Source: a virus
Strand: one strand, 5' to 3'
IMG/VR virus record: IMGVR_UViG_3300035670_000742
Coordinates: 1-35,262 of that record
DNA length: 35,262 nucleotides
Part shown: piece by piece, positions 1-29,339 of the stretch
How positions within the stretch are numbered: the stretch's first letter is position 1
Layout: every line of letters starts with the position of its first letter
The notes under the pieces: model-generated
The model's input: the letters and a program-made list of their open reading frames with translations, nothing else
Databases searched by the model: none
What the model was told of the DNA's origin: nothing
Translations under genes and position numbers: made by a program

Positions 1-681
1 GTCCGCGTAGACCTCGTTCGCTGCGCCATCGTAGAACTCCCACGCCCCGTCGGACTGAGCCGACAGGAGGCCATCCCCGTAGTCGAACTCCTCGGACCAG
101 ACCAGTGGCGCGGTGGTGGTGCTCGTGGTTGTCGTAGTGGTCGTGGTGGTGGTGAATGTCGTCGAGGTCGTGCTCGTCGTTGACGTGGTGGATGTCGTCG
201 TCGTACTGCTGGTCGTCGTGGTGACGGTCGTCGATGTGCTGGATGTCGTGCTGCTCGTGGTGGTGCTCGTGGTCTCGGGAATGGCAACGCCAGTCAGTAG
301 GTCCAGATCGAGGGCGAGGGTGATCGCCACCCGCACGTTGTTCGACTCGCCGGGGTACACGTTCTGAGCCGCCGTGAAGTTGATTGGCTTTATGGGGAGC
401 TGCGTGTACTCGTCGAACGCCTCCTTGGCCAGCGCCCACACCATCTGCCGCCAGTTGCCAGTGGTGGCGTCCGCCAGCGCCTCAGTGGTGAATGGAACGG
501 AAGAAACGGGGATGCACATGTAGGAGGTCGAGGCGTCGAGGCCGGTGTCTCCCATGTCCGACGTGTCGTCCTTGTCCACGTAGACATAGCCGGTGATGTA
601 GGTTGACGGGGAGTCATCCTCGTAGGCGAACGCCGCCACGCATGCGAGCGAGAAAAACAGGACTGCTACAAGCGTCTTCAT
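1..681 (-). CDS. Secreted protein with Thr/Ser-rich linker (partial, C-terminus beyond window)
   Basis: The first 227 residues are visible and the frame is open to base 1. The start is ATG at 681, preceded by GGAGG five bases upstream. Residues 1-19 (MKTLVAVLFFSLACVAAFA) look like a Sec signal peptide. Residues 20-135 form a small domain. Residues about 136-191 are almost all Thr and Ser, and then a new domain begins with APLVWSEEFDYGDG. That opening loosely recalls laminin-G/concanavalin-like or glycoside hydrolase family 16 domains, but too little is visible to decide. The gene follows another secreted-type gene with the same kind of linker. It is probably a late accessory or surface-interacting protein; function unknown. 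Confidence 0.8.
   Translation of the reverse strand, partial: MKTLVAVLFFSLACVAAFAYEDDSPSTYITGYVYVDKDDTSDMGDTGLDASTSYMCIPVSSVPFTTEALADATTGNWRQMVWALAKEAFDEYTQLPIKPINFTAAQNVYPGESNNVRVAITLALDLDLLTGVAIPETTSTTTSSTTSSTSTTVTTTTSSTTTTSTTSTTSTTSTTFTTTTTTTTTTSTTTAPLVWSEEFDYGDGLLSAQSDGAWEFYDGAANEVYAD
70..275 (-). repeat. Thr/Ser codon low-complexity tract
   Basis: On the minus strand this is a run of ACN and AGC codons giving about 55 Thr/Ser residues. It acts as a flexible linker between two domains of the secreted protein. A shorter tract of the same type ends the neighbouring gene at 739-816. Such tracts expand and contract easily and can be misassembled. Confidence 0.85.
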
Positions 682-735
682 GCGGCCTCCATCTGCGGGT
701 ACGTTGCCATGTCTCGCCGTGGTTTTCAACAGGAA

Positions 736-2283
736 TCACGGAGCGGTAGTTGTTGTGGTAGATGTGGTTGTCATGCTCGTGGTTGTGGTCGTCGTGTCAG
801 TCGATGTCGTGGATGAGTCGCTGAAGTCAAGCTGAGGATAGACAACGAACGCAAAGTCGTAATCACACAGATTGTCTCCGTCGCAGAACTGGCCAGAGCG
901 GTATGTTGTTGCGGCGTAACCAAGCACGAATCCGCGCTGATCCCCGCTGATGTCGCAAAGCCCGCCATAAGCAAACAGCGAAGTCGGCGGTGTGAAGTCC
1001 AAAAACTGTAGATCCCACGTTTCAAGCGGAAAGCCAGCAAGGTCTACGCAGTTTGAGCCGTTTGACGAGTGTCCAAGAATGTACTGCTCGACAAATACGT
1101 CGTCGTTGTAAATCACGCACGTTGTTGCGTTGACACACCCACTGGCGACGCATGTTATTGGCTGAACTCCGGTGGCCGGACAGTTGTGGATTAGATACGT
1201 TTCGTCAGCAAAGCCATTGCCAGACTGTCCAACCAAACCCGGAAAGCAATCCGTCGTCATAGCTGCGAGCGCGTCAAGGTAAGCGTCTGTGCAATCAGCG
1301 GCGGCACCCATGCCATAGTGAGGCGTTCCAATCGCCGTCGGGCACGCCTCTGCCTGTCCCGTCACCAGAGCCGATGATGCTCGATCGTATCCAACAGCCT
1401 GACACTGCTCGATAATGGCGCGAAAATGCTTCCACCCATAATCGGCACTGGTGTAAGAGTCCGCAATATTGGTGCTCTGGCACAGCTTCGAGACTACCTG
1501 TCCGCTCGTGCCAGAAATCTCGTGCTCGGCACCATATGGGTCTTGGACTGTATTCGTCACGATCTCTCCTTGCGATCCTCCCGAGAGCACCCAAGACACC
1601 TCCATCTCGCGCGGATAGCCGGGATGATACCCATCGAGGTTGCGGTATGGCGTGTACTCGAAGTAATTGGTTGGGGCACCAGCCTTGCGAGCCGCCTCCT
1701 CTGGGGTCATGCGAATCCATGTATCATCGAACACCGAGCTGGTAATTCCCTGAAGTACATTGGCTTCGCCAGAAAACGGGCTGGACGTGTTGTAGTAGTT
1801 GAGATCGAGATACGTTTGAACCAGAATCCCAAGAAGCCGTTTTGCCTCCACCAAATTGTCTCGCTCATAGCGGTAGAAGCGGGCGATGTATTGCTCGTTG
1901 GATATAGCCATTCCACTGATCGAGTCGAAGCGCGACGTGTATGTAGGGAATGGACAGATCGTGTATCTCCACCTCTCGGCAATGGCATCAATCGCCTCCT
2001 TCGCCCGTATCTCGGCAGCATTAATAGCGGCACCGAGGATAATGTCCTGATCCGGGTATAGGCGCGGATGCGTGATGTCGATGTAATATGTTGTCGAGTA
2101 GTTGGTTGAAGTCCCGTCGGGCAGTTGCGTCGTAATGGTCGTGGCGTGGTCAGCCCATACGTCATCTCCGGATACTGTGACACCTCCGGAGTAACGCGGC
2201 ATACTCCATGCGTTCGTCGTCCAGTCTGCCTTCGCTGCCGTCGCAAACAGACTACAGGCCGCGAGTAAGATGAATATCGCCAT
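736..2283 (-). CDS. Secreted protein with Cys-rich region and C-terminal Thr tail
   Basis: This 515-residue protein has an N-terminal Sec-type signal (residues 1-19, MAIFILLAACSLFATAAKA) followed by a mature start at DWTTNAW. The second half, about residues 270-470, holds many cysteines, suggesting disulfides outside the cytoplasm. The last 26 residues are almost all Thr/Ser and end in TTTTTAP with no domain after them. The start overlaps the previous gene by 32 bases, with AAGG nine bases upstream. Base composition looks more AT-rich than the neighbouring structural genes, suggesting recent acquisition. No family is recognised. The next gene is in the same frame, separated by one TGA and 18 sense codons. 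Confidence 0.8.
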   Translation of the reverse strand: MAIFILLAACSLFATAAKADWTTNAWSMPRYSGGVTVSGDDVWADHATTITTQLPDGTSTNYSTTYYIDITHPRLYPDQDIILGAAINAAEIRAKEAIDAIAERWRYTICPFPTYTSRFDSISGMAISNEQYIARFYRYERDNLVEAKRLLGILVQTYLDLNYYNTSSPFSGEANVLQGITSSVFDDTWIRMTPEEAARKAGAPTNYFEYTPYRNLDGYHPGYPREMEVSWVLSGGSQGEIVTNTVQDPYGAEHEISGTSGQVVSKLCQSTNIADSYTSADYGWKHFRAIIEQCQAVGYDRASSALVTGQAEACPTAIGTPHYGMGAAADCTDAYLDALAAMTTDCFPGLVGQSGNGFADETYLIHNCPATGVQPITCVASGCVNATTCVIYNDDVFVEQYILGHSSNGSNCVDLAGFPLETWDLQFLDFTPPTSLFAYGGLCDISGDQRGFVLGYAATTYRSGQFCDGDNLCDYDFAFVVYPQLDFSDSSTTSTDTTTTTTSMTTTSTTTTTAP

Positions 2284-2899
2284 AGGTCGCTACCTTCAGG
2301 TAGTACTCTACATACTCAAGCGCAACGTACGCACCATCCACCACGGGAGGCGGGTCAGACACCTCCTCGCACACGGGATTCCCGGTTCCTATATTGGCAA
2401 CATTGACTCGCACCCACATGCGATCCGGGTGGGAGTTCAATCCTGTATACCGCGTTCCGTTTACCCAAGCATTTCCGGTAAAGTACCCAGCGCTTTCTTC
2501 TGCCCGCGCCTTCACGCCAGCAAACCCAACAACACCGCCGCCTGCGAGCTGGTTCTCGATGTCCTTCAGCCTGACTTCAAGCGCGCTCTCGTTCGCCTTG
2601 GCCCACGCCTCCTTGGTGTTCTTCTCGCGCTCCGCCCTGCTGCCGGTCGAGCGTGTCTCGCGGAAACTCTTGCCGGGAGGGCCGCGTACGGAAAAGGACC
2701 GCGAACTCATCTTTCCCTGCGATCCACGATGGTCTTCTCCGGTCCTGAACTCCTCGGAGACCGACGAGCGCTCGCCGAAGTTGCGCGACGAGACCTTGCC
2801 CTGCGGGCCGCGATGCTCGCTGTTCGCCATGTTGCGCGCCTTCTCGGCCATCGCATCCATCTGTGCGGCGACATCGCCCTTCTGTTTGTCAAGACTCAT
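2252..2899 (-). CDS. Hypothetical protein with RGPxGK repeats
   Basis: This 215-residue protein is hydrophilic and basic over its first 110 residues. Imperfect repeats are visible: HRGPQGKVSSRNF, HRGSQGKMSSRSF and VRGPPGKSFRET at about residues 29-80. Together they look like a disordered or collagen-like spacer. A helical segment (KEAWAKANESALEVRLKDIE, about residues 95-114) follows, then a compact C-terminal domain rich in Val, Tyr and Gly. It lies between the large repeat protein and the secreted protein, so it is probably part of the same late accessory or tail-fibre set. No signal peptide is visible. Function not recognised. Confidence 0.75.
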   Translation of the reverse strand: MSLDKQKGDVAAQMDAMAEKARNMANSEHRGPQGKVSSRNFGERSSVSEEFRTGEDHRGSQGKMSSRSFSVRGPPGKSFRETRSTGSRAEREKNTKEAWAKANESALEVRLKDIENQLAGGGVVGFAGVKARAEESAGYFTGNAWVNGTRYTGLNSHPDRMWVRVNVANIGTGNPVCEEVSDPPPVVDGAYVALEYVEYYLKVATYGDIHLTRGL

Positions 2900-2909
2900 G
2901 AGGACTCGC

Positions 2910-5900
2910 TCACGTTATCTGCGGGGCGTCCACCTTCTTCTCCCAAGGCGTCTCGCCAACCAAGAACCCAACGCGGCTGGTGTGGATCACCCTGCCGTAG
3001 CGCTCTGACGTGGAGAGGTCCATGTACCGCGTGTCGCAACCGGCCATGGTGGCGAGAATCAGGTCGCCGCGATACGTGGACGAGTAGTTCATCCTGTAGA
3101 TGGTTCGCCTGCGCCAGACCGATCCGTCTGCGGCGGTGTGGTACTTCCATTCAAAGGCTGTGTGGATTCCGACGACCCATTCCCAGTCTGACTTCTGGAA
3201 GGCATAGGTGTAACTCACGAGCACGCCGCTGCACGTCCCATCCGCATTGAGCACAAACGATTCGTACTCCCAATAGTCGGACGCTGGCTGCGGGAAGGCG
3301 TCGAGCTGGCATCCATCAAAGGCGGTTGCGGTCTTCGTGATCCCGGCCCGCTCGTACCACGGATCGCGCTTCGACATCGCGAAGGACTGAATCATCGCAA
3401 CGCGCTCAGTCTTGATGCGCTTCCATTCGTAGGTGCCGTCCGCATTGACTTCAAGCAGCAGCTCGTAGCTGACTCCGGGCGTCGGCTGATGCGAGAGATC
3501 GGTCGTTGAGTCTGCGGTCGCGTCGGTCACGGTCTCGCGCTGGCTGTAGGTGCCGCCGGTCCCGAACTTCTCGAACTTCTGCTTGGCGCGACGGCGCACT
3601 GAGTACGTGAAGGTCTTGTCGTCGTTCGGACGCACATCGACATCGACAACTTCGCCAAAGCCGGGAGGGGTTATCGCTGGCATCTTGTCTTGGTCCGTCC
3701 CGACGACAAGCGATACCGGCGCGTACTTCTCGCCCATGGAGACGGTTGCTGTATTGGCCTTCACGTCGCGCCGCATCATGACATAGCGAAACGTGCCGTC
3801 TGCGCGCGGGTCGATATTAACTTCGACGCGCCGCCTCGCGGCCCCGCTGTACATGGCGACAAGGGCGGTCAGCTCCGCGTTCGTGGCGGCGTACCCGCTC
3901 GACACCGACACATCGTGCCCTGCTGACGGGGCCGGAAGGAACAGGTTGCAGGTGGCGTTGGAATCCTCGGTCTCGACGATCAGATAGTCGATCCCGCCCT
4001 CGTCGTTCGGGTTGTACGTGATCTGATGGGCCTTGCGGGCACCGGCCTTTGCGGCGGAGAGGGCCGTCGTGAAGTCGCTATCCTTCGCGTTGACGCCGCG
4101 CCATACCTTGAACGTGACCCCCTCGGTGTCGGTTCGCGTGACGCCGACGCCCGAGAGAAGCGTCGTGACCGGAGTGACCTTGGTCGCGCTGAAGTTGATC
4201 GTGCCGTCGTCGTTGAGGTCTAGGTTGACGCTGGCGCGCTGCCCCTTGACGAGCGTCAACACGTCTGCGGCGGTTCCGGCATCGCGGTTGCGCCCCGCTA
4301 TGGTCTCGATCAGGACACCCGTGCCGCTGACGTTCGCGGAATCGGTTCCTGATACGACGGTCTGCGAGCTGCACGAGTAGTCGAACGTGCCATCATCGTT
4401 GCCGCTCAGTTGCAGGTTGACGCGCTTTCTGGCCGCGCTTTGCAACAGGTAGGTGAGGTTCCCCCAGTCCACATTCTTGCCGCTGGATGCCTCCGCCACA
4501 ATTCCGCCAGAGCCGGACGACACGCTGCCCTGTGTCTCCTTTACGGTCACGGCGCTGCACGAGTAGTCGAACGTCCCGTCGTCATTGCCGCTGATGTCGA
4601 TGTTGACGCGCTTGCGGGCCGCGCTTTGAAGGACGTGCAGCAGGTGGGCGGAGTCCACGTTCCTGCCAGCACTCGCCTCGGACACAACCCCGTCGGCTCC
4701 GGAGTCCACCTTCTTCTGTGGGGCCTGCACGGTGCGCTTGACGATGGTCGCCGTTGCCGTCCCGTTGTCTTCAATCTTCAGGTCGGCATCAATCCGCTCT
4801 CGCCCGGTGATGGTCTCCTGAAGGCCCTTCAGGGCGGTCGAGGTCTGGCCCCTTGCGGAACGGACGCTCGTCGCAACTCCGGTGCTATTGCCTGAGCCAA
4901 ACACCAGTTGCGCGTTCTGCGGCTCTTCCTTGGTGCGTTCGGCGAGGTAGTTGAAGGTGCAGTTGTCGTCGTTGCGGTCGATGCGGATGTTGGCAGCCAG
5001 CCCGACGCCCTTGTATGTCGTGGTCTCGAATGACGCCTTGACGGTTTCAAGGCGCGACATCGGCACCAGCCAGCCCCACTCCAGCGTCCTCTCGATGGCA
5101 TTTCCGGTCCATGCGTCGAGCGTGAAGACGTGGGTGTCGGCGTCGTACTCGGTGTAGGTCTCGATCACGATGGCATCGAAGAACCCATCCCCGCGCTGCG
5201 AGACCTTGATCTCCCGAGAGCGCCCCGACCAACTCAGCGGGGTCTGCTGTCCATCAACTCCAGCCTCGTCACCGGCATGGTCGTTCTCTCCGCCGTGAGC
5301 CGCCAAAAATGTTTCGAGCTGCTCCTCGGTATAGCCCCATGCGTAGTGATGAACCTCGACCGTGTCGCAGTGGACACGCATCGGGTCGGTCGTGAGGTTA
5401 GCAAGTGGATTCCCCTTGGCCGACAGGATCAGGTTCACCAGCGCGGAGTCGGCGCTGAAGGATGCGCTGGCAGACCTGCCCGCGAGCTGCTCTTCAGATC
5501 CGGTCGTCTTCCATGCCGTGATGATGTCCTGCGCGAGAGCCTTTGGAATCCCCCAGAGGTAGTAGATGTCCTCGGAGGTGACGAGATTCAGGTTCGCAAA
5601 CGACTGAAGCGTGAACTGCGGCTGCCCGAGATAGACGGTGACGGTCGCCGATCCGTCGTCTTCCTTGCGCCACGACTGCATGATCCGGTGCCATGTCCCG
5701 GTGACGGCAACGTCCTCAACGACGACATTCGAGTAATCTCCAGTGGAGAACTCTGCGCATACCGACGCCGCCCTCTCGGGGGCTATGTTGCGAAACTCCA
5801 CCGCGATGAGCTTTGCAGGATCGTCAGATCCGGAATTGGTCACGCCTGCCGTGGATGCGTTGCCGGGGGACATCGTGGAGCCGAGCGGCGACCAGCGCGC

Positions 5901-6245
5901 CTCAGTCCAGTCGATGCTCGCGCCGGACAGCAGGGTCGTGATGTAGCCCTTGCGCAGGGTGTGGCGCAGGAGTACCGAGCGGTTGCGGTCTACTGCCTCG
6001 ATCCCGCTGATCTCAACCTTGTAGGTGCGCCACGTATCAGAGAAGTCGCGCCCCTCGACGGTGAACTTCTTGATCGTGCGGCGCTTGGATTCGACCCACG
6101 CCTTGAGTTCCTCGGAGGCTTGCGGCGGGATTGGCCAGCGCAGTTCGATCTGGCCGTCGCTGTTGAGGCCCACGCCTTGATCGACCGCCAGTTGCGCCTT
6201 CTCGTAGGCGAGCAGAAGTTCCGGGTCGAAGATACCCTGCGGCAT
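2910..6245 (-). CDS. Large modular repeat protein, probable virion appendage
   Basis: This is the longest gene in the window (1111 residues), starting after AGGAGG. From about residue 350 to 960 it is made of roughly ten diverged modules. Each module ends in a beta-rich signature of the type (V/I)x(I/L)xxNDDGTFDYS. The best-conserved pair is 62 residues apart (GNDDGTFDYSCS twice). The N-terminal 300 residues and C-terminal 150 residues are unique; the C-terminus is rich in Tyr and Trp. Length, beta-rich repeats and position after the head genes suggest a tail, spike or adhesion protein of the particle. That role is inference, as no named family is recognised. No signal peptide is present. Confidence 0.8.
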   Translation of the reverse strand: MPQGIFDPELLLAYEKAQLAVDQGVGLNSDGQIELRWPIPPQASEELKAWVESKRRTIKKFTVEGRDFSDTWRTYKVEISGIEAVDRNRSVLLRHTLRKGYITTLLSGASIDWTEARWSPLGSTMSPGNASTAGVTNSGSDDPAKLIAVEFRNIAPERAASVCAEFSTGDYSNVVVEDVAVTGTWHRIMQSWRKEDDGSATVTVYLGQPQFTLQSFANLNLVTSEDIYYLWGIPKALAQDIITAWKTTGSEEQLAGRSASASFSADSALVNLILSAKGNPLANLTTDPMRVHCDTVEVHHYAWGYTEEQLETFLAAHGGENDHAGDEAGVDGQQTPLSWSGRSREIKVSQRGDGFFDAIVIETYTEYDADTHVFTLDAWTGNAIERTLEWGWLVPMSRLETVKASFETTTYKGVGLAANIRIDRNDDNCTFNYLAERTKEEPQNAQLVFGSGNSTGVATSVRSARGQTSTALKGLQETITGRERIDADLKIEDNGTATATIVKRTVQAPQKKVDSGADGVVSEASAGRNVDSAHLLHVLQSAARKRVNIDISGNDDGTFDYSCSAVTVKETQGSVSSGSGGIVAEASSGKNVDWGNLTYLLQSAARKRVNLQLSGNDDGTFDYSCSSQTVVSGTDSANVSGTGVLIETIAGRNRDAGTAADVLTLVKGQRASVNLDLNDDGTINFSATKVTPVTTLLSGVGVTRTDTEGVTFKVWRGVNAKDSDFTTALSAAKAGARKAHQITYNPNDEGGIDYLIVETEDSNATCNLFLPAPSAGHDVSVSSGYAATNAELTALVAMYSGAARRRVEVNIDPRADGTFRYVMMRRDVKANTATVSMGEKYAPVSLVVGTDQDKMPAITPPGFGEVVDVDVRPNDDKTFTYSVRRRAKQKFEKFGTGGTYSQRETVTDATADSTTDLSHQPTPGVSYELLLEVNADGTYEWKRIKTERVAMIQSFAMSKRDPWYERAGITKTATAFDGCQLDAFPQPASDYWEYESFVLNADGTCSGVLVSYTYAFQKSDWEWVVGIHTAFEWKYHTAADGSVWRRRTIYRMNYSSTYRGDLILATMAGCDTRYMDLSTSERYGRVIHTSRVGFLVGETPWEKKVDAPQIT
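4371..4660 (-). repeat. Near-identical 186-bp repeat units inside the 1111-residue gene
   Basis: The string gcacgagtagtcgaacgt begins at 4371 and again at 4557, 186 bases (62 codons) apart. Both copies run on into closely similar sequence for about 90 bases. The similarity persists at the DNA level, so the duplication is recent compared with the other modules of the gene. Confidence 0.8.
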
Positions 6246-6256
6246 GGATGGGCCTC

Positions 6257-6628
6257 CTATTCGTCGTCGGGGACGGAGTTCCGCGTCAGGAACTCGTCGT
6301 CATCCGCTATGGCCGATCCTATCGCCCTCCGGGTGTGCATGTCGAACTTTTCCCACGCTTCGGCATCCGTGTCCATGGCCCACGCGCCTGACTGCTGAAG
6401 GTAGAACCGAATCCCGTGAACGATGGCGGCGTACTGGTAGGACTCGATGGTGATGCTGCCGTCCGGCGCGTCCTCGCTGTCCGGCGCGTACTCAGTCCCC
6501 CAGCGAGGATTGACCTCGCCGAGTGTCGAGAGCAGCGCTCGCATGAAAGCACGCTGCGAGGCGGGGCTGTCCGAAATCCCCGCCTTGCGGCGTACGTCAT
6601 CAAACAGGTCGGCTAGGCCGAGGTTCAT
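6257..6628 (-). CDS. Small helical protein, possible head-tail connector
   Basis: This 123-residue acidic protein is predicted to be mostly helical, with a C-terminal stretch rich in Asp and Glu. The pattern resembles small helical connector/adaptor proteins that follow capsid genes: an early helical pair, then a segment about 75-90 with aromatic residues (YQYAAIVHGIRFYLQQSGAW), then a polar tail. The resemblance is weak. Its start overlaps the stop of the lipoprotein gene (ATGA). Treat the connector role as a guess. Confidence 0.7.
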   Translation of the reverse strand: MNLGLADLFDDVRRKAGISDSPASQRAFMRALLSTLGEVNPRWGTEYAPDSEDAPDGSITIESYQYAAIVHGIRFYLQQSGAWAMDTDAEAWEKFDMHTRRAIGSAIADDDEFLTRNSVPDDE

Positions 6629-7029
6629 GGCTTCTCGATCAGCAGAAATCCGGAGCCGACTAGCGCCTCGGCGTTCGTCTCTCCGGCTTCAGCCGAGTAT
6701 ACCGCCATCTCCAGCTTGTCGTTGTAGAGGTACTGGATGTCGCTCTCGGGCAGCACGCGGTAGACGGACATGGCGTTGGTGGCTGCGACCAGCGTGCGGG
6801 CCGTCTGCGACAGCCCGATGCCCGACACCGTCCTGAGCACCACCGTCATGTTGGTTCCGCCCAAGAACGAGAAGACCAGCGGCTTCCCTGTGACGGCGGT
6901 CTCGGATGCCGCCGTCTCGACGGTCGTCGTCACGACGCCAGTCACCGAGAACTTCCGCAGATCGTAGCCGCCGCCCCACGCATGCGAGCATGCGGCTACG
7001 ATGCAGGCGATCAGGAGGAGTCGCTTCAT
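6625..7029 (-). CDS. Small lipoprotein
   Basis: This 134-residue protein starts after AAAGGAGG. Residues 1-14 form a short hydrophobic signal ending in a lipobox (VAAC, Cys14), so it is expected to be lipidated and attached to a membrane. The mature part is about 120 residues, rich in Thr and Val, with no further membrane segment. It sits between a membrane-anchored repeat protein and a helical protein in the late operon. Possible roles include superinfection exclusion, a spanin-like function or a surface protein. The sequence does not decide between them. Confidence 0.75.
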   Translation of the reverse strand: MKRLLLIACIVAACSHAWGGGYDLRKFSVTGVVTTTVETAASETAVTGKPLVFSFLGGTNMTVVLRTVSGIGLSQTARTLVAATNAMSVYRVLPESDIQYLYNDKLEMAVYSAEAGETNAEALVGSGFLLIEKP

Positions 7030-7041
7030 GAACGACCTCCT

Positions 7042-7791
7042 TTACTCAAGGGCTACGGAGCCATTCGTCGCGACCGTGGCCGTCGTGCTGGCGACGTTGG
7101 TCAGCGCAACCACCGTTGCGTAGACATTGGTCACTCCACTGGCGGTCGCCAGATACGTGTTGGTGACTGCCGCCGCCGTGGCGAGATACACGTTTGTCAC
7201 GCCGCTGGCCGTCGCCAAGTAGGCGTTCGTGACAATCACCATGGTATTCGTCACATCAGTCTCACTCAGGTAGGTGAGCGTCGTTGTGTCGAGGGTCAAC
7301 CCCGTGCCAAACGTCGCGACATCCTGAGACACAGCCGTTCCGAAGTTGGCGGTATCCTGCGAGAGGCTGGTTCCAAAAGACGCCGTGTCCTTCGTCACTG
7401 TCGCGCTGATCGTCGCCGACTGCGGAGTTACGGTGGCGATCGCCGTTGTGGTCTGCGGGGTGAATGTCGCCGTCGTCACGCCGATATTCGTCGGGTAGAT
7501 GTTCGTGACCCCGGTTGACGACACCGTCTTGAGCGTGCCGTCGTCAAGAATCGACACCAACGCCAACGAGTCTCCGGTCCATGTGACGACCGGATCAGCG
7601 GCCATAGCGCCACCGGCGACCAGCAGGAACGCCAGCAGCACGATGCCGATCTTGCCATCCAAGTTGAAGTCGCGTCCGAAGAAGCGCTCCAGCGTGCGGA
7701 CGATGTAGAACACGATCTTTTCGAGGCGCTCCAGCTTTTCGGCCAGATCGCTCTTCTCGGTCTTCTTCTCGGTCTTCTTGTCTTCGCTCAT
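7042..7791 (-). CDS. Membrane-anchored protein with hendecad repeats
   Basis: This 249-residue protein has a charged Lys/Glu-rich N-terminus (1-20), a coiled-coil-like segment (about 15-38), a hydrophobic segment (about 47-66, IGIVLLAFLLVAGGAMA) and a long outer part. The segment before the membrane contains DFNLDGKIG, which resembles a dockerin or EF-hand calcium loop. After the membrane come two families of 11-residue repeats: TAxFGTxLSQD three times, then VTNxYLATAxG about four times. Such repeats suit a fibrous trimeric or superhelical stalk. Whether it belongs to the particle or to the infected cell surface is unknown. Confidence 0.75.
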   Translation of the reverse strand: MSEDKKTEKKTEKSDLAEKLERLEKIVFYIVRTLERFFGRDFNLDGKIGIVLLAFLLVAGGAMAADPVVTWTGDSLALVSILDDGTLKTVSSTGVTNIYPTNIGVTTATFTPQTTTAIATVTPQSATISATVTKDTASFGTSLSQDTANFGTAVSQDVATFGTGLTLDTTTLTYLSETDVTNTMVIVTNAYLATASGVTNVYLATAAAVTNTYLATASGVTNVYATVVALTNVASTTATVATNGSVALE

Positions 7792-7893: not shown

Positions 7894-8883
7894 TTACGTC
7901 AGGGCCGCGAGCCGCGCACCGCGCCACGTCGCGCGGGGGTCGAGGCACCCGATGCCGAAGCGGGCGCGCAGGCGCTTGCCCATCACGTCCGGATCGACGA
8001 AGTTGATGTCCGCGATCGAAGGCCGGATCGCCCACCGGAACTGCAACCCGTTCGTCTTGGCCTTGGTGTCGCCCATGACGAAGAAGATGTTGTTCACGGT
8101 GAACTCGGGCACCACTTCGTAGTTGAAGCGGCCCTTCGCCCAGTTCGCGTCATTCATGGCCGTGCCGACGGTCTGCGAGGTCTCCCGCAGCCGCCACGCC
8201 ACGCGCTCGTAGGTCGGCGGGATCAGGAACTTCTTGATCGTGAGCGGCATCAGGTCGCCATTGTGAGCGCGCATGAGCGAGGCATTGACCTGAACATCGA
8301 AGAGCATGTCTTCCGTCAGGGAGCCGCTGGTCTCCTCGTTGTCCCACGTCGGCACGCCAACCACCGGATTCGGACGGTCGGTGTCCACGAGATACATGCC
8401 GTCCGGGCAGATGAAGGGCGCGTTCGTCGGCTGGATGCCGCGATTGAACACGTCCGCCAACTGGTAGTACAGCGTGCGGTTGAAGGCGTCGCGCATCTCG
8501 TCGCCCTCTTCGGCGATCGAGCCGAAGTTGTTGACCTCGGTCAGGCGGCGCTGGTGCTTCACGGCAACCCGGTAGGGCAGCGTGTAGAAGTTGTAGTCCC
8601 AACCCTGACCCCACGAGATGAACGGCAGGTCGTCGCCGTCTTCGTTGACGGAAGCGACCGAGTTGCCCTTCACGCGGGTCTTGACGACATGCACGTCGTT
8701 GAGCTGGCTTTCCTCGCGGAAAAAGCCCATCAACTGCGACGTGTTAATCATGCCGTTGATCTCGTCAATCAGTTCGTCGTAGTACTGGTTGATGAGATTG
8801 GTCAGGTCGGACTGACTGCGCATATCGGACCCCGTCGGAGGGGTCGCGGTAGCGGCTGATGCGGATCGTGCGAGCAGAGCCAT
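7894..8883 (-). CDS. Major capsid protein
   Basis: This 329-residue protein is called the shell subunit from several observations. Its length is usual for an HK97-fold capsid. It follows portal, scaffold-like and decoration-like genes, and it is followed by a strong terminator, as is common for the most expressed gene. Its text matches the general pattern of such proteins: an N-terminal helical arm (SDLTNLINQYYDELIDEING), a central EGDEMRDAFNRTLYYQLADVF helix and a C-terminal beta domain ending in a basic Arg-rich stretch. The ribosome site is AAGAAGGAG. No obvious maturation protease lies nearby, so the N-terminus may not be cleaved. Confidence 0.85.
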   Translation of the reverse strand: MALLARSASAATATPPTGSDMRSQSDLTNLINQYYDELIDEINGMINTSQLMGFFREESQLNDVHVVKTRVKGNSVASVNEDGDDLPFISWGQGWDYNFYTLPYRVAVKHQRRLTEVNNFGSIAEEGDEMRDAFNRTLYYQLADVFNRGIQPTNAPFICPDGMYLVDTDRPNPVVGVPTWDNEETSGSLTEDMLFDVQVNASLMRAHNGDLMPLTIKKFLIPPTYERVAWRLRETSQTVGTAMNDANWAKGRFNYEVVPEFTVNNIFFVMGDTKAKTNGLQFRWAIRPSIADINFVDPDVMGKRLRARFGIGCLDPRATWRGARLAALT

Positions 8884-13143: not shown

Positions 13144-13605
13144 CTATCCTTTCGGCTGGAGGATCACGTACGGGTCAATGAGGTGGACGCCGCCATCCTC
13201 CATCAGCACCTCGTTCGCCACCCACAACAGCGGGGCGACTTGGTGCATGAAGCGCGTCCTGACGGCCCCGTGCTCGGGCCACCGCATGAGGACGTGATGG
13301 TTTTTCCGCATTTCCGCAAGGTCTTCCGGCGTGATAATGCGGCATCCACGCGACACCATCAGGATAGACACCCAGTTCGACGAGTCAAGGGTTTTGTCCG
13401 GCAGGTACAGCGCCACGCTGCCGTCGTCGTCCGCGACGTGCTCCTTGCGGCACTTCTTCCCAAGCATCCAGCGCCCCAGCAGGCGTTGGATGCGGTTCTC
13501 AAAATGGGTATCCGGTGTAGCGGTCTCGCCGGACCCCGGCGTCCCGTACTGGATCGCGTCGGTCTTCTGGGAGGGTGTATCCTCGCGGCTTCTTGGTCTT
13601 GGCAT
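13144..13605 (-). CDS. Hypothetical protein overlapping the terminase 3' end
   Basis: This 153-residue protein starts at ATG 13605, seven bases after a good AAGGAG. Its first 107 bases lie out of frame inside the end of the large terminase gene. The frame continues past the terminase stop with convincing protein-like sequence (LGKKCRKEHVADDDGSVALY, HQVAPLLWVANEVLMEDGGV). The end lies eight bases before the portal start. A later start is possible but lacks a ribosome site. Function unknown; placed between terminase and portal. Confidence 0.75.
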   Translation of the reverse strand: MPRPRSREDTPSQKTDAIQYGTPGSGETATPDTHFENRIQRLLGRWMLGKKCRKEHVADDDGSVALYLPDKTLDSSNWVSILMVSRGCRIITPEDLAEMRKNHHVLMRWPEHGAVRTRFMHQVAPLLWVANEVLMEDGGVHLIDPYVILQPKG

Positions 13606-15391
13606 TGCTTGCTCCTTGGGTGCTTGGCCTGAACGTACACTCCGGCATGTAAGGGACTCGCATCTCGATCGCGTAGCGCAGGGCGTCCGGCAGGTGGTTC
13701 TTCTTGTCCTGCGGGCGTTCGGACGGATTTCCGGATTCGTCGCGCTGCGGCTTGTTGGCGTATTCGAGGAAGGCGCGGCGCGTGTGCTTGCACGAGCGGA
13801 AGACGTACAGGCGCGGCGCTCCCTTGCGCCCGGACTGGATATGCACGCGCTCCGGATTGATCCTGAGAAGCTCCTTGATGAGCATGATGCCGGGGGACTC
13901 GTCGCCGATGATCGCCGCCCGCACCTTCGAGAGCCCGCTCGCCCGATACAACTCGCCAACCGTGAGGCGAGTGGCATTGTCAGGAGTCTTGAACGTGTGG
14001 CCGTCTAGGATGTCGCAAATGTACTGCTCGTTGAGGTACTGCTCGCGCCAGCGGCGCACGATCTGGGTGCGCAGGTCGAGGTCCGGCATCTGCTCCAGCG
14101 TGTTGCCAGCGCGGCGCACGACCTCCTGTACGTTGGCCGAGATCACCTGACCGGCCCCGATGTAGTCGCGGAAGATCACGTAGTCCTGATTCGGCGTGAT
14201 GGCGACGCTCACGGCGGCGGTTGGATTGGTTCGGCCATGATCCCAGCCACGGATGGCGCACCAATCTGACGGGATGTCGATGTCGTCAATGACATGGACA
14301 TCCTCGTCGTACTCGTCAAATACGGCACCCGTGGAGGACTCCCACTCCCCGAAGAGACGCGCTCTAATCTGGCGTACGCGCTTGCGGTCTAGACGTTGCT
14401 CGGCCTCGTCCAGCTCGCGCAGGTCGATGGCCTTCTGGCGCTCGGCGTAGATCCAGTCAGGCACGTCCTTGATGAGGTCTCCGGAATAGAAGCGCGACGA
14501 GATACCGCGCGTCTCCTCGCCGGTCGCCATGCGGTGAATCCACGTTCCTGAGCCAGTGTCGGGACGGCCCTCGACCTTGTGCGGCGTCATGGCTGAGACA
14601 TGGAAGCCGCGCGAGATGCGCTCGATGCCATCGCGGTCCTTGTACCACTTGCGGCGCGTCTTCAGGCGGGCGTTCGCGCCGTCGAACTTCGCCTCAACCC
14701 CCTGCTCATCCCATCCCATCCCGTCGAACGCGCCGGACTCGAACGCCGCCTGCGGCTGGGCGCATGCCTTGAGCGTGAGGGAGAGGCCATCCCCGAGTCG
14801 CAGCGTCTCGCCCTGCGTCTTCAGCGGCACATTCCAGTTGATGTAGTCGCCGAGGATGCTCTTCGGCGTCCACATCTTCACCACCTTCGGCCACAGCGTC
14901 TCGCGGTGATTATCCCATAGGTACGAGACCAGCGCCACCTCGCGCGGGCCGAGGTACTCCTGATAGCGGACGCCATGCTCCTTGAAGACCTCCCAGTTCG
15001 GGTCGGTCTGGATCAGTCCCCAGCGCAGGAGCATCTTCACCCACAGGAGGGTCGTCTTGCCGTAGCGGTTGCCGCAGGTGATGGCCGTGTAGATGTTGGC
15101 GTTGTCGTTGATGAAGAGGTGGGACGGGGTGACGAAGTCCGCATGGTTGGCGCAATGCGGCAGGAAGAAGCGCAGAGGGTTCTGCTCGCGCTCGTGCTGC
15201 ATGTGCTCGACGAAGCGCCTCTGGTTGGCATGCTCCGCCAGCCAGCGCCGGTCGAACGACAGGATGCGCAGCCCGAGGTTGACGAGGATGCGCGAGTCGT
15301 CGCCGATCCGCGCCATCAACTCGGGCCGCTTGAGGTAGTCGGCGTACTCCAACCTGAACTCGCCGTCCTCGGTGTAGAATATGAAGACCAT
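13499..15391 (-). CDS. terL: Terminase large subunit
   Basis: This 630-residue motor packages DNA into the procapsid and cuts concatemers. The ATPase part shows a Walker A motif at 107-113 (GNRYGKT) and a Walker B with catalytic Glu at about 224-230 (GMGWDEQ). The nuclease part (RNase H fold) starts near residue 378 with IRGWDHGRTNPT, where Asp384 is the likely first metal ligand. Further acidic residues are seen at Asp460/463 and in NHLPDALRYA (Asp569), the usual last motif. The start follows AGGAGC. It lies directly before the portal gene. Confidence 0.93.
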   Translation of the reverse strand: MVFIFYTEDGEFRLEYADYLKRPELMARIGDDSRILVNLGLRILSFDRRWLAEHANQRRFVEHMQHEREQNPLRFFLPHCANHADFVTPSHLFINDNANIYTAITCGNRYGKTTLLWVKMLLRWGLIQTDPNWEVFKEHGVRYQEYLGPREVALVSYLWDNHRETLWPKVVKMWTPKSILGDYINWNVPLKTQGETLRLGDGLSLTLKACAQPQAAFESGAFDGMGWDEQGVEAKFDGANARLKTRRKWYKDRDGIERISRGFHVSAMTPHKVEGRPDTGSGTWIHRMATGEETRGISSRFYSGDLIKDVPDWIYAERQKAIDLRELDEAEQRLDRKRVRQIRARLFGEWESSTGAVFDEYDEDVHVIDDIDIPSDWCAIRGWDHGRTNPTAAVSVAITPNQDYVIFRDYIGAGQVISANVQEVVRRAGNTLEQMPDLDLRTQIVRRWREQYLNEQYICDILDGHTFKTPDNATRLTVGELYRASGLSKVRAAIIGDESPGIMLIKELLRINPERVHIQSGRKGAPRLYVFRSCKHTRRAFLEYANKPQRDESGNPSERPQDKKNHLPDALRYAIEMRVPYMPECTFRPSTQGASNAKTKKPRGYTLPEDRRDPVRDAGVRRDRYTGYPF

Positions 15392-15398
15392 CCGGCTC

Positions 15399-15632
15399 CT
15401 ATAGCGCGATCACCTGCGAGTAGAGGACGCTGCCGCACCCAAGGCGCTCATGCTCGATCGGGCGGTGCGGATCGAAGCCGCGCTGCCGCAGCACCTCGCG
15501 GCGCATCCGCTCGTCGTATGAGCGCATCGAGGCCGTTCCGTAGATTAGATCCTCGCAGTTGCAGCGCTCGATCACCCATACCCGCATCATCATTCCGTTG
15601 CGGGCGATCACATTGCTGTCACCGTGTCGCAT
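15399..15632 (-). CDS. Small hypothetical protein
   Basis: This 77-residue protein starts at ATG 15632 with GGAG seven bases upstream, overlapping the HNH gene end by 14 bases. It carries three cysteines (CNC at 24-26, C66) and a basic helix (MRSYDERMRREVLRQRGFDP). It ends just before the terminase gene. No family is recognised. Confidence 0.65.
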   Translation of the reverse strand: MRHGDSNVIARNGMMMRVWVIERCNCEDLIYGTASMRSYDERMRREVLRQRGFDPHRPIEHERLGCGSVLYSQVIAL

Positions 15633-16032
15633 AGGGATTCTCCACTCGCTCGCGCAGGCGTTCCACGATCTCGAACACGTCATCCTCGGTCAGCGGCGCG
15701 ACTACCGCGCTGCGTTCTACGAGCTTCGCCATGGCGGCGGCACCCGCGCGCGAGATGAAGGTCCGCGCATAGGTGGGTTCAAGATGCCCGTCGTGATCGA
15801 GCCGGTGGCACTTGCGGCACATCAGGTGGCAGTTGCCGTCCTTCTCGACATCCCAGCGCAGGCGCAGGTAGCGTCGGCCAAGCAGGTGTGCGACCTCGGT
15901 GGCCGGGGCCGCACAGCAGTAACAGCGGCCCTCCTCCAAGATCCACAACACCTGCCTGACCAACAAATCCGCCTCGTCGATCAGGGCTGGACGCCCTCCT
16001 TCATCGCGGTCCCGACCCAGATCGACGCGCAT
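15619..16032 (-). CDS. HNH / NinG-like zinc endonuclease
   Basis: This 137-residue protein starts at ATG 16032; the longer open frame upstream lies inside other genes. The core is CYCCAAPATEVAHLLGRRYL, then RLRWDVEKDGNCHLMCRKCH. This gives two Cys pairs with His, Asn and His between them, as in HNH nucleases. The order (HxxxRRYLxxRWD, N, CxxC) resembles lambda NinG recombination proteins. HNH proteins next to terminases are often needed for packaging cuts, so either recombination or packaging is possible. A helical C-terminal region of about 50 residues follows. Confidence 0.75.
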   Translation of the reverse strand: MRVDLGRDRDEGGRPALIDEADLLVRQVLWILEEGRCYCCAAPATEVAHLLGRRYLRLRWDVEKDGNCHLMCRKCHRLDHDGHLEPTYARTFISRAGAAAMAKLVERSAVVAPLTEDDVFEIVERLRERVENPYATR

Positions 16033-17101: not shown

Positions 17102-17516
17102 CGAAGTTGATCTCCTTGTGTTCCTTTTCGGCAGACAGCAGTTTCTTCTCGGCATCCGCGAGCTGGTCAAGGATCTTGGGGATCTGCGAGAGCATCTTCA
17201 CGGCGGTCTGCGGATTCGTGGACACGGTGTCCATCAGCACGGAGACCTGCGTGGCCGCGAAACGCCACACGATCATCCGCATGACCTTCATCCGCATCGC
17301 GTCCCCGATGTCCTCGACGAAGGACGAGTAGCGGGCGACCGCCTCGGCCACCATCTTCTCGTCGTAGGACAGCATCTTGGCGATGCGTGCGATCGGTGTG
17401 TAGATGGCGTGCAGCGCGATGATCTCACGCTCCCATTCGGGGATTCCGGCCACGTCCGGCTTGACCTTGGCCAGTTCCGCCGCAATCTCCTTCGGCGTCA
17501 TCAGCCCGCCACTCAT
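17073..17516 (-). CDS. Candidate small terminase-like protein
   Basis: This 147-residue helical protein starts at ATG 17516 with AGAGG upstream. The first part carries a likely helix-turn-helix (TPIARIAKMLSYDEKMVAEA, about 44-63), followed by long helices and a charged C-terminal coil (DQLADAEKKLLSAEKEHKEI). A DNA-binding N-terminus, central oligomerisation helices and a charged tail are the layout of small terminase subunits, and the position upstream of the large subunit fits. The adjacent 270-residue protein is a rival for this role. Moderate to low confidence in function. Confidence 0.7.
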   Translation of the reverse strand: MSGGLMTPKEIAAELAKVKPDVAGIPEWEREIIALHAIYTPIARIAKMLSYDEKMVAEAVARYSSFVEDIGDAMRMKVMRMIVWRFAATQVSVLMDTVSTNPQTAVKMLSQIPKILDQLADAEKKLLSAEKEHKEINFDDFGKSLGK

Positions 17517-17986
17517 GCGTGGCACCTCTTGACGTTCTCGCGATTCATGTCGGGCGTATAGATCTCGATGCGCCAGTGGCTCCCCCAATGCCCACCCTTG
17601 TACTTCCGCATCCAGATCCATGTCCAGTCCGGATACATGCCCTTGGCCATGTTGAACCGCACCCGCGAGTCCTTGTTGCGAATGAAGTTACCCTTGACCT
17701 CGACGGCCACCCGAGCGGCCTCGTCCACCCAGTCCGGAGTGTAGATGCCGGTGTAGAGCCGGAACTCATACCCCTCGAACTTGGCCTGCGACAGGACTCC
17801 GGGCAGGGACTTGAGCAGCGTCATGGCCTCGGTCTCGGTCTGGTTCGGGGCTGGCCTGCTGGCTTCTGCTGGCTTGGCCTCGCGGGGAGGCTCCGGCAGG
17901 CCCAGCGCCGCTTTGACGCGGTGCGTAGGCCCGCCGGGGATGCGCTCGCCATCAGGGATAGGTTCGAGATCCGACAGTCGGATCAT
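17513..17986 (-). CDS. PD-(D/E)XK nuclease-like phage protein
   Basis: This 157-residue protein has a Pro-rich linker (30-50) and then a nuclease-type core. YTPDW (Asp85) starts the metal site and VAVEVKGNF (Glu96, Lys98) completes the PD-(D/E)XK signature. A later strand with aromatic residues (YPDWTWIWMRK) follows. Small phage nucleases of this kind (for example the DUF1064 type) are often placed where Holliday-junction resolvases are found. It is next to DNA-binding genes and not far from SSB. A role in recombination or branch cutting before packaging is likely but inferred. The start follows AGGAGG. Confidence 0.75.
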   Translation of the reverse strand: MIRLSDLEPIPDGERIPGGPTHRVKAALGLPEPPREAKPAEASRPAPNQTETEAMTLLKSLPGVLSQAKFEGYEFRLYTGIYTPDWVDEAARVAVEVKGNFIRNKDSRVRFNMAKGMYPDWTWIWMRKYKGGHWGSHWRIEIYTPDMNRENVKRCHA

Positions 17987-18153
17987 CGGTTGCCCTCCTG
18001 AGCCTCGCGGAGCATCTCGTCGCGCTCGGTGAGCGGGCAGGCTTGCAGGATGGCGGAGGCCACGATGAACTGGGCAATCGTCATGCCCTGTGCAGCCGCC
18101 GTCTCCATGATCGCCACCACCGCGCTATCAGGTATGTTGACCACTGTCTTCAT
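17983..18153 (-). CDS. Small ribbon-helix-helix-like protein (56 aa)
   Basis: The open frame encodes 56 residues beginning MKTVVNIPDSAVVAIMETAA. One short strand (TVVNIPD) followed by two helices is the ribbon-helix-helix pattern of Arc/CopG/MetJ-type DNA-binding proteins. Its stop overlaps the next start (ATGA) and its start lies 26 bases inside the end of the 63-residue gene upstream, which is of the same type. It may be a regulator or an antitoxin-like protein. Confidence 0.6.
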   Translation of the reverse strand: MKTVVNIPDSAVVAIMETAAAQGMTIAQFIVASAILQACPLTERDEMLREAQEGNR

Positions 18154-18319
18154 CAATCAGTCCGAGTTCCTTGCGCAACGCCCTGTTGACTACCCACGAG
18201 AACGAGCGCTCAAGGGCTCTGGCCCGCTCCTGCACGGCTCGGTGGACCTCGTTCTCGACGTAGATCGAGACCTTGGTGCCCCCGCTCTCGTACTGCCACC
18301 CTGCCTTTTCGTCGCTCAT
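18128..18319 (-). CDS. Ribbon-helix-helix protein, likely regulator
   Basis: This 63-residue protein has the sequence TKVSIYVENEVHRAVQERAR followed by ALERSFSWVVNRALRKELGL: a strand, helix, turn and helix as in CopG/Arc repressors. The pair of helices with conserved SFSWVVNRAL is the most typical part. It lies directly downstream of a promoter-like sequence with an 11-mer that is also found inverted in another promoter. It may therefore control that pair of sites. Confidence 0.7.
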   Translation of the reverse strand: MSDEKAGWQYESGGTKVSIYVENEVHRAVQERARALERSFSWVVNRALRKELGLIDEDSGQHT

Positions 18320-18329
18320 TCTGCCACCT

Positions 18330-18357
18330 TGTATCAGATGGTGGGAGAACCTGTCAA
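18330..18357 (-). promoter_or_regulatory. Promoter-like sequence with 11-mer site
   Basis: The minus strand shows TTGACA (18357-18352) and, 16 bases on, GATACA (18335-18330). Between them is TCTCCCACCAT (18348-18338), identical in inverse orientation to the site at 19279-19289. The -10 is poor and would give a very short leader for the gene at 18319. Confidence 0.35.
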
Positions 18358-18358
18358 C

Positions 18359-18769
18359 TCAGAAGGGCAGGTTCTCGTCATCGTCCTTGGGTTTCTCGAC
18401 AGTCTCCTCCGGCGGGCGCTGATCCATCTCATCCCTGCCGCCCCGCGTCACGAAGTCCACCCCGTCGGCGAGGATGACGACCTTGGAGCGCTTGTCGCCC
18501 CCCTTGGTCTCCCACCGCTCCTGCGCCAGCCGCCCGCGCACGATGCAGTTGGCCCCCTTGGCGAGGTGCTGTCCGACCAGCTCGGCGGTCTTGCCAAACG
18601 CCTTGCAGTCGAAGAAGTGGGCCACGTCCACCGTGGTCTCCTGCACCTTGTCGCGCCGCCTCTCGTTGAAGGCCAGCGCGAAGGATGCGACGGCGACCCC
18701 GCTCGGCGTGTGCCGGATCTCGGGATCGCGTGTCAGGTTGCCGCGAATAACGACGATGTTCGTGCTCAT
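18359..18769 (-). CDS. ssb: Single-stranded DNA-binding protein
   Basis: This 136-residue protein coats single-stranded DNA during replication and recombination. The OB-fold opening VVIRGNLTRDPEIRHTPSG and AVASFALAFNERR (residues about 6-39), then HFFDCKAFGKTAELV and GANCIVRGRLAQERW, follow bacterial SSB in order. The C-terminus is acidic and ends in DDDENLPF, the partner-binding tail of SSB. The start is ATG 18769, overlapping the preceding stop (ATGA). The length is near that of phage SSBs, and the linker is shorter than in Escherichia coli. Confidence 0.93.
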   Translation of the reverse strand: MSTNIVVIRGNLTRDPEIRHTPSGVAVASFALAFNERRRDKVQETTVDVAHFFDCKAFGKTAELVGQHLAKGANCIVRGRLAQERWETKGGDKRSKVVILADGVDFVTRGGRDEMDQRPPEETVEKPKDDDENLPF

Positions 18770-19068
18770 GCCTTGTTCGTCCCCTCCACGCCGCGCGTCA
18801 TGCGATCTGCCGTCCGGCTCTGGAGCCACGTCAGCGCCGCCGCCAGATTCTCGATCGCGTACTCGTTGCGCAGGTCGGGAACCTTGGTGTTGAGGAAGCG
18901 CAGCCGGTCGATCAGCGCCATGAGCACCTCCTCGTTCGTGGTGCCGTCCTTGACCAGTTCGAGCTTGCCGTCCTTCTCTTCCTTCTCGACGAACCGGAGC
19001 GACTGGTCGCCGCCCGGACCCTCGGACCCAGCCAACTTGTACGCATGACCTGTCTTCAGTACCTTCAT
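18766..19068 (-). CDS. Acb2/Tad1-hairpin-like protein, possible anti-defence nucleotide sponge
   Basis: This 100-residue protein starts at ATG 19068 after AAGGAG; an upstream extension lies in the neighbouring gene. Residues 1-45 form a small beta-rich head (KVLKTGHAYKLAGSEG, SLRFVEKEEKDGKL). Residues 46-88 form a helical hairpin (TTNEEVLMALIDRLRFLN, YAIENLAAALTWLQSRTADR), then RGVEGTNKA. From memory this matches a frequent phage family with the pattern ALIxRLxxLN, AxxxLxxAxxWLxxRT and RGVEGT, which I associate with the Acb2/Tad1 hairpin. Those proteins bind cyclic nucleotides and block CBASS or Thoeris immunity. The link is not certain. Confidence 0.75.
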   Translation of the reverse strand: MKVLKTGHAYKLAGSEGPGGDQSLRFVEKEEKDGKLELVKDGTTNEEVLMALIDRLRFLNTKVPDLRNEYAIENLAAALTWLQSRTADRMTRGVEGTNKA

Positions 19069-19244
19069 TGCTCTTCTCCTTGTTCCTGCCTGTACTCGCC
19101 GCACCAGTCATCCGGCAATGTGTTTACCCACTTTGGACTTGGCGGACTTTTGTGACACTGCCCGAAGATGTTTGGGTGAGGGAAGCAGTTCTCGTTTATA
19201 CCTCTCCGCGCATCGCTGCGAAACCAAACCTGCACGTCTCGCAT
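19065..19244 (-). CDS. Small zinc-binding-like protein
   Basis: This 59-residue protein begins MRDVQVWFRSDARRG at ATG 19244 with AAAGGAG close upstream. An earlier ATG at 19289 lies between the -35 and -10 of a promoter, so it is less likely. Cys20, Cys30-His31 and Cys48 in DDWCGEYRQEQGEEQ follow the common pattern of small phage zinc proteins ending in WCGE(Y/F). Function unknown; first gene of the operon that carries the Acb2-like protein and SSB. Confidence 0.65.
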   Translation of the reverse strand: MRDVQVWFRSDARRGINENCFPHPNIFGQCHKSPPSPKWVNTLPDDWCGEYRQEQGEEQ

Positions 19245-19266
19245 GACTCCTTTCTGACCTTGCCAC

Positions 19267-19296
19267 ACTATCCTACACTCTCCCACCATGTGTCAA
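19267..19296 (-). promoter_or_regulatory. Promoter with embedded 11-mer
   Basis: The minus strand has TTGACA (19296-19291), an 18-base spacer and GATAGT (19272-19267). The spacer holds ATGGTGGGAGA (19289-19279), the inverse of the site at 18338-18348. It would start transcription near 19260 for the small zinc gene, the Acb2-like gene and ssb. Confidence 0.5.
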
Positions 19297-19317
19297 CACG
19301 ATTTTTCTTTTTTTCCT

Positions 19318-19638
19318 TCAAGCGTGCGTGGCATGGAGTTCGAGGTGGTGGGTTCGGCATAGCCAGACGACATCGAGCGGCTTGTCGTAGTTGTCGTGGT
19401 GGGCCTCGACTAAATCAGATCCGCACACGCAGCACGGGCCTTTCTTCACCTTGCCCCTGCTGACGTAGGTGGTGAGGTATGCCCGAGCGTTGGCCCGCCC
19501 CCGCGCCTCGTCGTCCAGCTCTGAGTGCCGCTTTCGATGGGTTCGCATCCACTCCGCCCTGCATGACAGGCACCAGCGCTGCCCTTTAACCGCCTGATTC
19601 GCCCCGCACCGCCCACACAACCCGCTTTTTTCTTTCAT
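19318..19638 (-). CDS. Zinc-finger / HNH-like protein
   Basis: This 106-residue protein has two zinc modules. Residues about 8-26 give CGRC and CLSC around NQAVKGQRW. Residues about 69-103 give CCVCGSDLVEAHHDNYDKPL then DVVWLCRTHHLELHATHA, an HNH-like arrangement of Cys pairs and His. It may be a small HNH-type nuclease or just a DNA-binding zinc protein; the catalytic set is not complete enough to choose. It is the first minus-strand gene after the divergent control region. The start follows AGGAG. Confidence 0.75.
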   Translation of the reverse strand: MKEKSGLCGRCGANQAVKGQRWCLSCRAEWMRTHRKRHSELDDEARGRANARAYLTTYVSRGKVKKGPCCVCGSDLVEAHHDNYDKPLDVVWLCRTHHLELHATHA

Positions 19639-29136: not shown

Positions 29137-29339
29137 AAGCAATCGCTCTGGTTGTCGTGCATGGCGGGGTCGCTTACACATACTCGCCGCCGCATGTGTT
29201 GGTTGGTGTTGTCGATCGAGACAACATCGAGGCTGGCGGCGGGCGGCCCGTACTGCCATCCGGAATCGGGTTCGAGGAGTTGTGCAAGGCCGCAGGACTT
29301 GACAACAACCACGTCCGATTCAGAACGGAGGGGGAATGA
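29133..29339 (+). CDS. Small hypothetical protein, GTG start
   Basis: This 68-residue protein starts at GTG 29133 after GGGAGGGG. It is beta-rich (KAIALVVVHGGVAYTYSPPH, VLVGVVDRDNIEAGGGRPVL). Not recognised. Confidence 0.7.
   Translation: MKAIALVVVHGGVAYTYSPPHVLVGVVDRDNIEAGGGRPVLPSGIGFEELCKAAGLDNNHVRFRTEGE

Follow-up and report, generated by a model that had tools for sequence, protein, structure and literature searches.

The virus contig IMGVR_UViG_3300035670_000742 of IMG/VR, analysed here over its whole length of 35,262 bases (the window), carries seven late genes, g7 to g1, between its capsid gene and the contig end. Four of them, g1, g2, g6 and g7, encode proteins with predicted export or membrane signals, and signal-bearing proteins recur at the same gene positions in most of the related phages that we found; what is conserved across the group, as judged from the sequences, is gene position and export tag, not sequence. 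Our preferred reading, to which we assign a probability of about 55%, is that the seven genes belong to the late operon of a tailed phage, probably one with a Verrucomicrobiota host, and that the genes at its fibre and decoration slots encode Sec-exported proteins that would be free at lysis to bind particles or to stay on the envelope. We would describe the set as recurring, sequence-variable, exported, fibre-like late proteins.

Export signals predicted in four late genes

Signals were called with a heuristic for Sec signal peptides, which looks for an uncharged hydrophobic core, an n-region whose charge is not negative, and an AXA-like cleavage site; in an extended version the core is allowed to begin up to residue 60. 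All signals reported below are predictions of this heuristic. g1, g2 and g6 score positive, g7 does so in the extended version alone, and none of the other late window proteins that were scored is positive. As background, the heuristic is also positive for 3.4% of proteins after shuffling and for 9 of 229 mechanically called open reading frames (ORFs). By these features, g1, g2 and g6 are predicted to be Sec-exported proteins with type I signal peptides. A first-pass annotation of the window had placed export or membrane signals in four consecutive genes, with Sec signals at 681 and 2283, a lipobox protein at 7029 and a membrane segment at 7791; these numbers are gene starts, since all of the genes lie on the minus strand (as do all late-gene coordinates given here). 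Each of the four does carry such a signal, but they are not consecutive, for g5, g4 and g3, which have none, lie between them.

g1 (1..681) runs off the contig end, and its 5' part, 227 residues in the window, encodes a Sec signal peptide, a small domain, a Thr/Ser-rich linker (residues ~137-192; 106..273) and the start of a domain. The signal peptide, MKTLVAVLFFSLACVAAFA (625..681), is followed by YEDD after the cleavage site, and the ATG at 681 is preceded within a few bases by GGAGG, a strong ribosome-binding site. Cys14 has SLA just before it. The domain that begins after the linker (WSEEFDYGDGLLSAQ..) appears lectin-like, a resemblance judged by eye only. In g2 (736..2283; 515 residues), the signal peptide MAIFILLAACSLFATAAKA (2227..2283; DWTT after the cleavage site) is followed by a Cys-rich body with 15 Cys and a Thr-rich C-terminal tail; the n-region has no positive charge, and Cys10 has no charge before it. 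The GC content at third codon positions (GC3) of g2 is 0.60, compared with 0.71-0.88 in adjacent genes, and its codon-usage score is low, from which a recent acquisition is possible. The end of g2 (736-810) is a Thr-rich linker, ..STTTTTAP, with no domain beyond it, and g1 (106-273) has a like linker followed by the lectin-like domain; the Thr-rich linker DNA of the two genes may be a recombination joint for swaps of C-terminal domains. The Thr/Ser linkers reported by the first-pass annotation are thus present in both genes.

g6 (6625..7029; 134 residues), which overlaps the start of g5, encodes a good Sec signal, MKRLLLIACIVAACSHA (6979..7029; WGGG after the cleavage site), and a small domain. 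Lipoproteins usually have their lipobox Cys at residue 15-35 and a K/R within the first seven residues. In g6 a K/R is present, and the lipobox-like VAAC is borderline because its Cys, residue 14, is one short of that range. g7 (7042..7791; 249 residues) adjoins the capsid gene and encodes a charged, helical N-terminus, a hydrophobic segment at residues 48-64 (KIGIVLLAFLLVAGGAMA, then ADP; 7600..7650) and a Thr/Ala/Val domain of ~185 residues built of 11-residue repeats. The segment ends in AMA, a cleavage-like site followed by AD, and is a putative signal-anchor or late-starting signal because it lies behind the N-terminus of ~46 residues. The VTN hendecads noted earlier (VTNxYLATAxx and earlier variants; 7087..7467) are real, since comparison of g7 with itself at a shift of 11 residues gives 57 identities, far above the 20.9 +/- 3.9 of shuffled sequences. 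An AlphaFold model of g7, with a predicted local distance difference test score (pLDDT) of 38.6, was too poor for a fold search.

Against Pfam, PHROG and NCBIfam, g1, g2, g6 and g7 matched no family, with chance-level hits alone for virion fibre or structural families, and no sequence relative of any of these four proteins turned up in the collections that were searched. The whole set g1-g7 gave nothing convincing against Pfam, PHROGs, NCBIfam, PDB sequences and named phages, where searched; matches of window proteins to DUF5320, MapZ and serine-rich families were rejected as low-complexity.

Recurrence of signal-bearing genes around g4

On sequence grounds, the gene that links the phage group together is g4. 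Within 10.5 kb of a g4 homologue, the heuristic marks 36 of 134 genes as signal-bearing, whereas in the rest of these contigs it marks 4 of 188 (Fisher p 1.5e-11), and in a control set of 106 phage loci with related capsids the count is 20 of 1651 genes (1.2%). Among genes of 150 residues or more, the counts are 18/68 near g4 and 9/864 in the control loci. Two of the contigs, G615 and G616, nearly duplicate each other; the counts 36/134 and 4/188 include G616, whereas 18/68 does not. The mature parts of the signal-bearing proteins also stand apart from the remaining proteins of their contigs by a feature that played no part in their selection, with 16.7% versus 26.6% charged residues (p 4e-11) and 23.9% versus 15.6% Thr, Ser and Asn together (p 2e-8). 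Proteins that are beta-rich, extracellular or of fibre type have this composition. Overall there is no enrichment of cysteine, g2 with its 15 Cys being the exception.

The first-pass annotation had pointed to related phages as the place to look for the same block, and there it does recur around g4 homologues, with signal-peptide proteins in most relatives right after the capsid gene, before the adaptor, and after the gene that follows g4. The fullest layout is that of L135 (contig G614, 60.8 kb). Its major head protein (phrog_1328, 1e-9) is followed by a gene of 189 residues and by signal-peptide proteins of 266, 171, 1355, 105 and 420 residues, with one unsignalled gene among them; further on come a holin-like gene, a small gene, an adaptor-slot gene, the g4 homologue, a small variable gene and a signal-peptide protein of 668 residues. 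Read as a 673-residue form, the last of these has a start that overlaps the previous gene by 35 bases, comparable with the 32 bases by which the start of g2 overlaps the end of g3 at the same place. The 1355-residue protein has a weak match to YadA-head repeats (1.6e-4). A signal-peptide protein at 6602-7963 of L135, within the phage late block, resembles autotransporter passenger repeats by eye.

In L139, a signal-peptide protein adjoins the capsid gene (phrog_1357, 7e-17), which is the slot of g7. L124 has two between the capsid gene and g4, one of 430 residues with a tail-fibre-like motif at its C-terminus, and one of 306 residues that matches the virion structural family phrog_10356 (1.3e-27) and is not a homologue of the window set. 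Six export-signal proteins lie near g4 in L138 and five in L142, the latter including a fibre-like one of 843 residues; L136/L137 and L125 have chiefly lipoprotein-like genes there, and the short contig L126 has no signal-peptide proteins near g4. Pairwise comparison of the signal-peptide proteins, among the relatives and against the window, gave no convincing homology; of the proteins in the block, only g4 aligns convincingly. As side observations, an alpha/beta-hydrolase-like gene, possibly a lysis or envelope esterase, adjoins the g4 homologue in L125 (10086-10652), L136 (8856-9563) and likewise L137, and beside the signal-peptide block of L138 lie a lipoprotein-like caspase/peptidase-type protein and a cellulase-like protein (3819-4643 and 2805-3815; by eye only).

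Linkers and repeats, which had been taken together with the signals as marks of exported proteins, do not serve as such. Similar Thr linkers occur in the large T4-like contig L085, and the RGPxGK repeats, real as three RG[PS]xGK motifs, belong to the unsignalled g3. L085 itself was rejected as a g4 relative, being a chance match in a glycosyltransferase-like ORF.

The association with a host also comes through g4. L096 is an assembly of an uncultured member of the Verrucomicrobia, and a six-frame search with g4 in 388 genomes from its phylum gave three hits (6e-17 to 9e-12), all within one class of Verrucomicrobiota. A profile of the g4 domain found further members in that class, with matches in 8 of 346 genomes at E<=0.001 (six reached E<=1e-5), and in IMG/VR it found L135 (4e-29) and the near-duplicates L136 and L137 (2e-9); in genomes of the phyla of G010, G004 and G006 it found 0 of 742. 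Because the g4 matches sit in one class and are absent from these three other phyla, the phage host is, by association, probably a Verrucomicrobiota bacterium. Named phages, searched at both the DNA and the protein level with g1, g2, g4, g7 and the terminase, yielded nothing useful; exact-peptide scans of viral contigs with g2, the capsid, the terminase, the portal-size protein and g7 gave none, and neither did a scan of genome contigs with the portal-size protein.

Setting of the block in the late operon

The minus strand encodes the genes that lie between ~19 kb and position 1, and the early genes are on the plus strand. g1-g7 run in the same direction as the genes for the single-stranded DNA-binding protein (SSB), the terminase, the scaffold-like protein and the capsid, and belong to the late, virion-gene half because of this minus-strand block with SSB, terminase and capsid upstream. 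The block includes SSB (18359-18769), a resolvase-like gene (17513-17986), an HNH gene (15619-16032) and the terminase large subunit (13499-15391; phrog_5653, 8e-16); a portal-size protein of 731 residues and a scaffold-like protein are encoded between the terminase and the capsid gene. The major capsid protein (7894..8823) is of HK97 type by distant similarity to known phage capsids, with 22-33% identity to the capsids of a Pelagibacter phage, an Alcaligenes phage and Caulobacter phages, and to those of numerous environmental contigs. The capsid relatives L005-L084 have no g1-g7 and served as controls. 3' of the capsid gene the order is g7, g6, g5, g4, g3, g2, g1 and then the contig end. No close relative of the contig was found among named phages, and its 35,262 bases contain no tRNA genes. 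Amid the early genes, an ORF of 44 residues with one membrane segment (29336-29470) encodes a possible small membrane protein.

The three genes without signals are placed among the signal-bearing ones. g5 (6257..6628; 123 residues) is a small gene in the adaptor slot, a role given by position only. g4 (2910..6245; 1111 residues) has an N-terminal part of ~400 residues that is conserved in Verrucomicrobiota-associated phages, and NDDGT repeats; it consists of repeated units at NDDGT(F/I) turns, and a low-confidence model points to repeated beta-alpha-beta-beta units. An AlphaFold model of the g4 N-terminus (pLDDT 39.1) was too poor for a fold search. g3 (2252..2899; 215 residues) has its three motifs followed by a C-terminal domain, and its slot is that of the variable gene after g4 in the relatives.

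Roles proposed for the exported proteins

Under the preferred reading, g1, g2 and g6 would be made with a cleavable signal peptide and sent out through the host Sec pathway late in infection, while g7, its repeat domain on the outer side, would either keep an anchor in the inner membrane or be freed from it by cleavage. The exported proteins would fold in the periplasm into low-charge, Thr/Ser/Asn-rich, linker-jointed, fibre- or adhesin-like forms, and at lysis they would either bind the freed particles as head or tail fibres or remain on the envelope and debris. We consider the two final locations, virion and envelope or extracellular space, about equally probable. Two things favour a virion fate, the position in fibre and decoration slots next to the genes for capsid and tail and the match of an L124 protein to phrog_10356; an envelope fate is favoured by the pelagiphage precedent (PMC9599517) and by the unsignalled fibre-like proteins of L124. 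The cell-surface set made late in infection that the first-pass annotation proposed is therefore upheld as to predicted export, a probable surface-type character and membership of the late, virion operon; a cell-surface fate has no better claim than a virion one, and display on the host surface, a block to re-infection and contact with a biofilm would be hypothetical roles. More tentatively, part of the virion fibres or decoration may be made outside the cytoplasm, being Sec-secreted, folded in the periplasm (g2 probably with disulfides) and joined to particles only at lysis.

Several points weigh against the preferred reading. The signals are predictions of the heuristic; the fibre nature of g1, g2, g6 and g7 rests on position and composition, because they have no detectable homologue; and the structure models are too poor to use. 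The Fisher p-values (1.5e-11 for signals near g4) overstate independence because the contigs are related to each other, and the contrast near g4 is large despite this kinship. The lipoproteins near g4 in L136, L137 and L125 may be lysis or accessory genes. L124, moreover, has fibre-like proteins without a signal, so its virions need not depend on exported ones.

It is possible, though on balance doubtful, that the genes form a host-envelope module only, whose products would be retained in the periplasm or at the exterior of an infected cell or a lysogen, would coat receptors or alter adhesion, and would never enter virions. HTVC023P-type pelagiphages, with a distantly related capsid, do have exported proteins in the same region and are described with a curli export system (PMC9599517), and relatives are present in bacterial genome assemblies. 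However, even in divergent phages the genes keep fixed places among those for capsid and tail, a virion-structural family is matched by one relative, and a search of Pfam, PHROG and NCBIfam matched no curli family in the window set. The hydrophobic N-terminal stretches could instead lie buried in virion proteins of the ordinary kind, whose assembly is cytoplasmic. This is the standard expectation for tailed phages and agrees with the report of phage hypervariable proteins without signal peptides (PMC6199706). We find the explanation unlikely, as textbook n-, h- and c-regions with AXA-type sites are shared by numerous proteins that lack homology but are encoded at equivalent positions, and the conserved virion proteins that flank them have no such N-termini.

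Two further explanations concern fewer genes or no common role. g7 in the inner membrane and g6 as an outer-membrane lipoprotein may constitute a two-gene spanin lysis pair, with only g1 and g2 being fibre-like. The predicted topology of g7 (N-in, one membrane segment, long periplasmic repeat domain) would fit, as would g6, a short export-signal protein with a near-lipobox that starts 12 bases after g7, and we recognised no further lysis gene in the window. Nevertheless, g6 has a Cys only at residue 14, the outer domain of g7 is Thr/Val/Ala-rich and apparently not a charged coiled coil, the signal-peptide proteins that fill the same slots in L135 and L139 are larger and fibre-like, a holin-like gene is present separately in L135, and no spanin family was matched in Pfam, PHROG or NCBIfam, which makes the pair quite improbable. 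The least credible explanation is coincidence, or host-derived cargo (morons) acquired independently: the signal-peptide proteins share no sequence and the codon composition of g2 deviates, but the enrichment near g4 is strong and the positions are repeated across divergent contigs.

Compared with known systems, the set resembles exported phage envelope modules in its predicted export and fibre genes in position and composition, and the window proteins match the families of neither. HTVC023P-type pelagiphages are described as encoding a curli (type VIII secretion system, T8SS) export module (PMC9599517), and in HTVC023P itself (L003) two signal-peptide proteins, gp45 and gp46 (17463-18119 and 18153-19538), annotated only as hypothetical, are encoded downstream of the capsid gene. 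The likeness lies in exported late-region proteins and a distantly related capsid. In contrast, such a module is recognised by CsgA/B repeats, CsgF and CsgG, and g1, g2, g6 and g7 gave no curli family match in Pfam, NCBIfam or PHROG; no secretion pore or regulators were found in the window, and its predicted exported proteins are fibre-like and interleaved with adaptor and tail genes. Superinfection-exclusion lipoproteins or periplasmic proteins, such as T5 Llp and the phi80-type Cor, are small phage-encoded exported envelope proteins; the lipoproteins of this kind hinder related phages in adsorption or DNA entry. They share export and phage origin with the set, but are usually the product of one small gene outside the tail block, whereas here up to six proteins, some of more than 1000 residues, occupy fibre slots; g1, g2, g6 and g7 did not match the Cor family (NCBIfam NF047972). 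Tail and head fibres and LamG-type virion proteins (phrog_10356) are alike in gene position, in low-charge, Thr/Ser/Asn-rich make-up and in lectin-like and repeat domains, but a Sec signal peptide is not a feature of ordinary tailed-phage fibres. Two-component spanins, in which a type II inner-membrane protein with a coiled coil in the periplasm is paired with an outer-membrane lipoprotein, are alike in the order and topology of g7 and g6, and differ in repeat composition, in Cys position and in the larger proteins that fill these slots in relatives.

Particles of tailed phages are assembled in the cytoplasm. In a survey of phage hypervariable proteins, the absence of signal peptides was typical and was used as a sign of phage origin (PMC6199706), so that export tags on fibre-slot proteins are unexpected. 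The open-licence literature that we searched held nothing direct on exported virion proteins of tailed phages and no description of such a set, consistent with the earlier suggestion of an undescribed surface module. Under standard phage annotation, such genes would be labelled as bacterial contamination or as hypothetical. If routine export tagging of fibre-slot proteins is true, it would mean that assembly of these phages is finished outside the cytoplasm, or that they encode a remodelling of the Verrucomicrobiota envelope.

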